A stretch of 64,000 bases of DNA from an uncultured Acidobacteriia bacterium (GTDB lineage Bacteria > Acidobacteriota > Terriglobia > Bryobacterales > Bryobacteraceae). The notes under the pieces are model-generated. The model worked only from the letters and a program-made list of their open reading frames with translations. It did not search any database and was not told the DNA's origin. Below are positions 13,716-14,710 of the stretch, piece by piece. Where the stretch lies: contig CAINNJ010000004.1 in the NCBI GenBank assembly GCA_903851195.1, forward strand, positions 310,001 through 374,000. The letters are read 5' to 3'. The position numbers and the translations under genes are program-made. Numbering within the stretch: position 1 is the stretch's first letter; the number at the start of each line of letters is the position of its first letter.

Positions 13716-14681
13716 TCAGTTGCGCGAGGGCATGGCCGCGTGGTCCGCGTGCGAAGACCGGTCGGAATAACCCTTGGGGATCAGCAGCGTCAGGCTGTCC
13801 GGCACACTCGAGATCGTCGCCGGCACACTGCCGACGGCCTCGCCATCCATCTGGACATAAATGCGTTCGTCCTCCGGCGGAGCGATTACCGCTTCACTGG
13901 CCCTGCAGATGGTCACACCCGGAGTCGTGTACAGTCGGTTCGTGACCACCGCACCAAAGAATCGCAGGTAATCGTGCCATTCGTGGTTCTGAAAGAGGAC
14001 AACCTCGAACTCCGCGTCGGTCAGGCGCACGCGCTTGGCGATCTCGAAATCGCCGCCATAGTTGCGGACGCGCGTGATCAGCGCAAAACTGGCCACATGG
14101 GGAACGCCGTGGACCTTGATCGTGAACTGCGGAACGCGCCGGCCCAGTTGTCGAAAGCCGCCGTGCCAGTACGCGAGTTTTCCCAGGCGGGCTTTCAGAT
14201 TCAGATCCAGTTCGTAGACGATGCGGGCGTCGAGACCGATGCCCGCCATCAGGGCAAAATGCCTTCTGGAATGGCCCGGCCGGTCGTAAGCGCCCAAGGG
14301 GATCCGGGTGGGAACGGCGTGCAGCAACTGGGACGCGGCGCGGTCGGGCCGGTTGCTGAGGCCGAGTTCATTCGCCAGAACGTTGGCGGTGCCGGCCGGC
14401 AGCGCGCCGAAAACCACCGGGTTGCCCACCAGTCCGTTAATCGCTTCGTTGATGGTGCCATCGCCGCCGGCCGCCAGAACCAGGTCGCAGCCGTCCTGTG
14501 CGGCGCGCCGGGCCAGTTCTCCGGCCTTGTTCGGACCGGGCGTGGGATACAGTTCCACCTTGCGGCCCGCCTTGCGAAAGACCTCCGCGGCAACGTCCAG
14601 ACGCGCGCGTTTCGATCCTTTCAGGCCGCCTGCGAAAGGATTATAGATAATGCCTATGCGATGAAGTGGATGCGAGATAAT
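13716..14681 (-). CDS. Diacylglycerol/sphingosine-type lipid kinase (YegS/DagK family) with unclear start
   Basis: Phosphorylates a lipid or related polyol with ATP at the membrane. The kinase signature [15 protein letters not shown] is present, as are [11 protein letters not shown] and a C-terminal domain including QMDGEAVG. The conserved N-terminal strand [11 protein letters not shown] is encoded in frame at 14657-14625, upstream of the first GTG (14558). No ATG, GTG or TTG occurs in frame between that strand and the in-frame stop near 14708. Only ATT (14681), ATC (14678) and ATA (14657) are available upstream. I give the boundary as the ATT at 14681. The start is therefore uncertain: a rare AUU/AUC start, a sequencing error, or a protein shortened at its N-terminus are the options. 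Divergent from ligA. Confidence 0.8.
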
Positions 14682-14704
14682 TTTAGAGCCAGTCGAAAAG
14701 ATCG

Positions 14705-14710
14705 ATTATA
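14705..14710 (-). promoter_or_regulatory. Candidate -10 element for the lipid kinase gene
   Basis: A perfect TATAAT on the minus strand, 24 bases upstream of the candidate ATT codon. A transcript starting about 7 bases further on would have a very short leader. No good -35 hexamer is seen at the usual distance. Confidence 0.4.

Follow-up and report, generated by a model that had tools for sequence, protein, structure and literature searches.

Several bacterial genes are described as starting at AUC, AUU or AUA (together AUH; ATC, ATT or ATA, or ATH, in DNA), and these are the closest systems to the locus reported here. Escherichia coli infC has a conserved AUU start that limits its translation, as described in the available parts of two papers (PMC1780047, PMC9410913), and the accessible text of the second states that IF3 discriminates against AUU. 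The portion of PMC1780047 at hand also describes E. coli pcnB, where AUU limits the synthesis of a protein that is not part of the translation machinery, and mentions that an AUU start has been proposed for lepA of two species. Similarly, conserved non-canonical starts are given for Staphylococcus aureus ccpN (AUA), cvfC1 (AUU) and infC (AUA), and in S. aureus reporters AUU and AUA gave ~10% of the AUG level in poor medium, with ccpN reaching up to 30% in rich medium (PMC13009471, available part). Within the open-licence PMC literature that was searched, no paper was found that reports AUH starts for bacterial lipid kinases or for the bacterial family considered here.

Our analysis concerns a lipid kinase gene on the minus strand of a 64,000-nucleotide stretch of DNA (the window), which is part of contig C4 in a 7.7 Mb, 67-contig draft genome. 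Direct reading of the minus strand over 13400–15200 places an in-frame TAA at 14708–14706, within a TATAAT at 14710–14705. The codons that follow in frame are TCG ATC TTT TCG ACT GGC TCT AAA ATT ATC TCG CAT CCA, continuing with CTT CAT CGC ATA GGC ATT ATC TAT AAT and then the conserved first strand, [11 protein letters not shown]. The frame extends from stop to stop over 13716–14705 (329 codons). Between the TAA and the first strand no in-frame ATG, GTG or TTG was found, which confirms what an earlier, sequence-only reading had reported for the interval between the stop near 14708 and the strand at 14657–14625. The earliest such codon in the frame is a GTG at 14558, downstream of the first strand.

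From one sequence alone, a missing canonical start is weak evidence, because the first ATG, GTG or TTG comes late (more than 30 codons past the upstream stop) in 14 of the 51 main open reading frames of the window, the kinase included; comparison with relatives makes it strong. By their coordinates, the late-start open frames of the window overlap a neighbouring open reading frame. The features of the locus are collected in Table 1. Just downstream of the kinase, the minus strand also encodes a small protein (13373–13672) with a signal-like N-terminus and a Lys-rich remainder, the 88-residue main part of which had no Pfam match. Opposite the kinase runs a stop-free antisense frame (13080–14723, plus strand, 547 codons), probably a by-product of GC-rich codon use. 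No Rfam family was found at 13000–16000, and no tRNA in the window.

Table 1 Features of the kinase locus, in window coordinates.
Feature	Position	Strand	Basis
TATAAT, likely -10 element for kinase transcription; 26 nt separate it from AUC	14705..14710	-	direct reading and family box spacing
In-frame TAA upstream of the kinase frame, inside TATAAT	14706..14708	-	direct reading
Interval from -10 box to AUC, with no Shine-Dalgarno-like 4-mer	14679..14704	-	sequence
ATC, favoured as start codon, 12 codons before the Asn of YNP	14676..14678	-	genus conservation, third-position variation
ATT, alternative start codon, one codon upstream of ATC	14679..14681	-	ATT in 16/19 genus loci
Lipid kinase gene (DAGK_cat + YegS_C), 320 codons if AUC is the start	13716..14678	-	Pfam
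[11 protein letters not shown], first strand with its loop, both conserved; the start has to lie before it	14625..14657	-	sequence, Pfam, solved chains
ligA, encoding an NAD-dependent DNA ligase and divergent from the kinase; its ATG is 79 nt from the AUC	14758..16800	+	NCBIfam PRK07956, 845.8 bits
GATAAT, complementary to ATT ATC; may be a -10-like element for ligA	14676..14681	+	sequence only

The protein is a member of the DAGK_cat lipid kinases, matching Pfam DAGK_cat (E 2.2e-27; residues 17–138, profile positions 2–123 of 125) and YegS_C (1.5e-13) and carrying the catalytic GGDGT motif in its translation. The solved chains nearest to it by sequence are 4wer and DgkB 2qv7. Its likeness to the YegS/BmrU/DgkB family lies in a match that covers most of the protein; however, it falls below the cut-off of each NCBIfam model listed, and assignment to the YegS/Rv2252/BmrU subfamily was rejected because the closest model, TIGR00147, scores 107.8 bits against a curated cut-off of 118.65. 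The same genome contains a second, distant lipid kinase (L002, G000:C23:17184-17738) with a GTG just before its first strand, so an AUH start is not general to this fold in the window's genome.

Kinase matches are present in 19 of 19 genomes of the window's genus and in 228 of 237 genomes of the family; the nearest seven in a scan of named genomes are Bryobacteraceae, Bryobacterales, Acidobacteriia and Terriglobia MAGs. We read 119 loci and dropped one at a contig end (L125) and one from another family (L028, family f2), leaving 117, which represent 117 of the 228 matching family genomes and are mainly the better matches. Of these 117 loci, 60 lack ATG, GTG and TTG over the whole interval from the upstream stop to the first strand. 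All but two of the 60 carry an AUH at positions -9 to -13, counted in codons from the Asn of YNP (58 loci), and the remaining two carry CTG. The signal is concentrated in a single column outside the window's genus, where 61 of 97 loci have ATH at position -11, as opposed to 43 of 740 codons at -12 to -21 (p 2.5e-50, only indicative as the family loci are related). This column (n=97) contains ATC 39 times, ATT 14, ATA 8, ATG 1, GTG 2, TTG 1 and CTG 2. ATA, with 8 of the 61, is commoner there than among internal Ile codons, where it makes up 31 of 691 (Fisher p 0.0097).

A simple rule, which preferred AUH in the window's genus, assigned a start in 106 loci, with nine loci excluded for holding both kinds of codon and two for holding neither. 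By this rule 82 starts are AUH (ATC 56, ATT 17, ATA 9) and 24 are canonical (TTG 17, GTG 4, ATG 3); an ATG is also present in two of the nine loci excluded for having both kinds. Where other loci of the family have TTG, GTG or ATG, it stands between -7 and -15, as can be seen by setting L195 (AAG TTG GCC CAC TAC) against L149 (AAG ATC GCT ACT TAT). Eight loci are especially constrained (L127, L131, L132, L136, L151, L153, L170, L179): a stop closes the frame two codons before the AUH, and apart from that AUH no AUH or NUG codon stands further than five codons before the Asn. The AUU or AUC start put forward by the sequence-only reading is thus well supported, both by the share of AUH among assigned family starts and by the loci that lack a canonical codon altogether.

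Within the window's genus, ATT ATC is kept at the same place in 16 of 19 loci. The three that differ are L010 (CTT ATT), L008 (CTG at -11) and L020 (ATT at -9 and -15), and the column of the window's AUC holds ATC in 16 of the 19 and ATT in one more. Since ATT and ATC are both kept in those 16, the exact start codon in the genus is ambiguous. For the window, comparison points to AUC at 14678–14676 as the most likely start, with AUU at 14681–14679 as the alternative; AUC is favoured because in L010 the second codon alone stays AUH. Canonical codons do occur 20 or more codons before the Asn in eight genus loci (L003, L005, L006, L007, L009, L014, L019, L020), mostly at or before the -10 box.

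Kinases outside the family start differently. In sister and other families of the class, each of the 19 readable kinase genes carries a canonical codon at -7 to -13, which is ATG in 13 of them (L247, which is cut, was excluded from this outgroup), and a canonical codon is available within 40 codons in each of 73 more distant kinases. Because the outgroup kinases have canonical codons, the AUH start looks derived in the family. A tree built by a quick method from 126 columns implies at least 10 changes between AUH and NUG; as 62 of its 134 inner branches are unresolved, it does not allow these changes to be placed in order. In it two neighbours of the 16-locus AUH clade considered below start otherwise, L162 with TTG and L175 with ATG.

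Other genes served as controls. The N-terminus of ligA was located in 111 of 118 loci, and a canonical codon is available to it in 110 of these 111. A rule shared with infC was tested and not found, infC starting with ATG in all 19 genomes of the genus; this bears only on infC itself and not on control of the kinase by IF3. In these infC genes (L040, L210–L227) the ATG is followed by an Ile codon (in one case Leu), and an in-frame stop followed by CGC often stands immediately before it. We set aside a pcnB-like match from the genome of the window, as it lies below the cut-off and its frame holds canonical codons.

The best reading of these data, to which we give a probability of about 0.85, is that the kinase is translated from AUH, a derived, family-wide non-canonical start that keeps synthesis of the protein low. 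Comparison among relatives shows the position, identity and conservation of the predicted start. Early in the family, an AUG or GUG start, of the sort still found in sister families, would have been replaced by a near-cognate AUH, which most of the descendants covered here would have kept, with UUG, GUG or AUG used in some. Transcription would set out from the -10 box just before the start and yield a leader of ~15–20 nt or an almost leaderless mRNA. Many relatives have a Shine-Dalgarno-like motif ahead of the AUH, and the window's genus has none. AUH codons pair imperfectly with the initiator tRNA (PMC9410913) and presumably initiate poorly, and this weak initiation, together with the rarity of AUG, would most likely hold the lipid kinase at a low level, as expected under selection for low dosage. 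Such selection for little kinase is the simplest reading of the start's purpose, because AUG is one base away from every AUH, yet only 3 of the 106 assigned starts are ATG. Tuning of the kinase by IF3, which the sequence-only reading raised as an implication of such a start, or by growth state is speculative.

We compared the distance between promoter and start across the assigned loci. In 59 of the 106 loci a -10-like box (six variants allowed) precedes the start by 17–29 nt; all 59 are AUH, a figure that depends on the box list, as four TTG loci (L030, L142, L152, L196) have weaker boxes at 24–28 nt. The box lies 5–10 nt before the start in 23 loci (12 AUH, 11 canonical) and at neither spacing in 24, against a background further upstream of 2 boxes in 3604 six-offset spans. 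In the window the distance is 26 nt to AUC and 23 nt to AUU, and the transcribed leader would be ~15–20 nt, judging the transcription start from the -10 spacing. The very short leader that the sequence-only reading had drawn from TATAAT is therefore plausible, although the 26 nt between box and AUC do not amount to leaderless spacing, and the shortest distances (5–10 nt) belong to the 23 loci just mentioned.

These short distances agree with the signature published for bacterial leaderless genes, a -10-like signal ~12 bp before the start; in three Acidobacteria genomes such genes were estimated to make up 13.3% on average (PMC3160421, in its available part). Some kinase mRNAs of the family are probably leaderless, to judge from this spacing. 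In L131, L136, L207, L173, L029 and L031, for example, TATAAT or TATACT stands 6–9 nt before AUC, AUA or AUU, and loci with such short spacing are candidates for mRNAs that lack a leader and open with a non-AUG codon. The short -10 spacing may also be old, because 5 of 19 readable genes of sister and other families have TATTAT 9–10 nt before ATG or GTG.

From the same observations it could be argued that initiation is leaderless, the 5' end of the mRNA defining the start, and that a relaxed choice of codon is tolerated rather than selected. We consider this unlikely, if deserving of serious attention. The 59 loci with the longer spacing, which include the window, are the ones that are all AUH, subject to the box list used. 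Also, outside the genus 44 of 64 AUH loci show a Shine-Dalgarno-like 4-mer, often GGAG 7–8 nt before the AUH. Leaderless mRNAs, moreover, favour AUG.

Translation from a selected AUH, the preferred reading, can also be set against a promoter-based account of the genus pattern, in which ATT ATC is kept as the complement of a ligA -10 box, GATAAT, and the AUH start is a by-product without selection for weak initiation. GATAAT does resemble a -10 box, ligA lies upstream and divergent in 110 of 111 loci, and a ligA element may add to the invariance of ATT ATC in the 16 genus loci that keep it. However, no -35 element is visible by eye at the expected distance in the window, and in another clade, which has no fixed -10 box at this place, the third base of the AUH varies while the AUH is still kept. 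As an explanation of the start, this account strikes us as rather improbable.

Variation by codon position shows where coding sets in. In a gap-free alignment of 16 AUH loci from one clade, the start codon has C as its third base in 9 loci, T in 4 and A in 3, the absence of G being partly built in as the set was picked for AUH and equal spacing. From the next codon to the first strand, diversity at codon positions 1/2/3 in this clade is 0.19/0.10/0.46, and upstream in the same frame it is 0.37/0.23/0.28, with no third-position excess. The 16 genus loci give 0.21/0.15/0.50 downstream and 0.46/0.46/0.39 upstream, values that are rough because the upstream part was laid side by side gap-free despite indels; here, third-position variation sets in right after the window's ATC column. 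This pattern of diversity indicates that coding begins at or next to the AUH.

The same pattern bears on the proposal that the true start is an internal canonical codon, GTG 14558 in the window, and that the frame upstream of it is an untranslated relic. GTG 14558 is the first ATG, GTG or TTG in frame, and a gene finder limited to these codons must choose it or a later one. Nevertheless, the stretch from AUH to the first strand varies at third positions as protein-coding DNA does, and the DAGK_cat match begins at that strand, upstream of the GTG. Additionally, the first internal canonical codon differs among genomes, and in six loci without an upstream canonical codon (L013, L016, L131, L133, L134, L136) it lies beyond the GDGT catalytic motif. 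We rejected an internal start on the coding signal upstream and the extent of the DAGK_cat match, and regard it as very improbable.

Loss of a canonical start through a sequencing or assembly error, conceivable in a 67-contig draft and named in the sequence-only reading as one way in which it might be wrong, is refuted by the relatives and has a negligible probability, as the same absence recurs in 60 of 117 genomes and ATT ATC stands at the same place in 16 of 19 genomes of the genus. The other such case that it named, that close relatives might have an ordinary start within a few codons, did not hold up on comparing them.

Beyond the AUH start itself, a more far-reaching version of the argument is conceivable, which we put forward tentatively and would not bet on. 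The whole family would have locked the kinase onto AUC, AUU or AUA under selection against AUG, the window's genus without any Shine-Dalgarno motif and several other genera leaderless within a few bases of the AUH, such that promoter position and start codon alone would act as a dosage clamp.

The kinase has probably been truncated or missed in many annotations, because standard bacterial gene finders, to our knowledge, do not call starts outside ATG, GTG and TTG. The bacterial cases in the papers we found are single genes, with strong Shine-Dalgarno motifs supporting those of S. aureus. A case that is family-wide and dominated by AUC, with TTG, GTG and ATG variants nearby and with short-leader and near-leaderless forms, offers a natural experiment on how weak starts are chosen and kept, and it raises the question why a lipid kinase must stay scarce.

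Set beside the known systems, the gene belongs by sequence comparison to the same kind as infC, pcnB and ccpN, having an AUH codon conserved at the start position among relatives; the mark of this kind, the absence of ATG, GTG and TTG at the coding 5' end, is found in the window as in 60 of 117 family loci. With E. coli infC it shares a conserved AUH start codon, which there limits translation and here would do so; however, infC encodes IF3 and is autoregulated, whereas the window gene encodes a lipid kinase. The infC of the window's own genus is canonical, whereas that of E. coli uses AUU and that of S. aureus AUA. E. coli pcnB, a different gene, starts at AUU, whereas in the kinase AUC prevails (56 of 82 AUH starts) and an AUH start is common to most loci read in a bacterial family. 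The likeness to S. aureus ccpN, cvfC1 and infC again lies in conserved non-canonical starts. The S. aureus sites have extended Shine-Dalgarno motifs, according to the available part of PMC13009471, whereas neither the window nor any of the assigned loci of its genus (18 of 18) has so much as a Shine-Dalgarno-like 4-mer, and support of the S. aureus type is absent there. The other AUH loci of the family differ from the genus in this respect, 44 of 64 having such a 4-mer, and some relatives look near leaderless. We therefore rate the conserved AUH start as the known element of this system, and its AUC-dominated, family-wide form, without a Shine-Dalgarno motif in the window's genus, as the new one.
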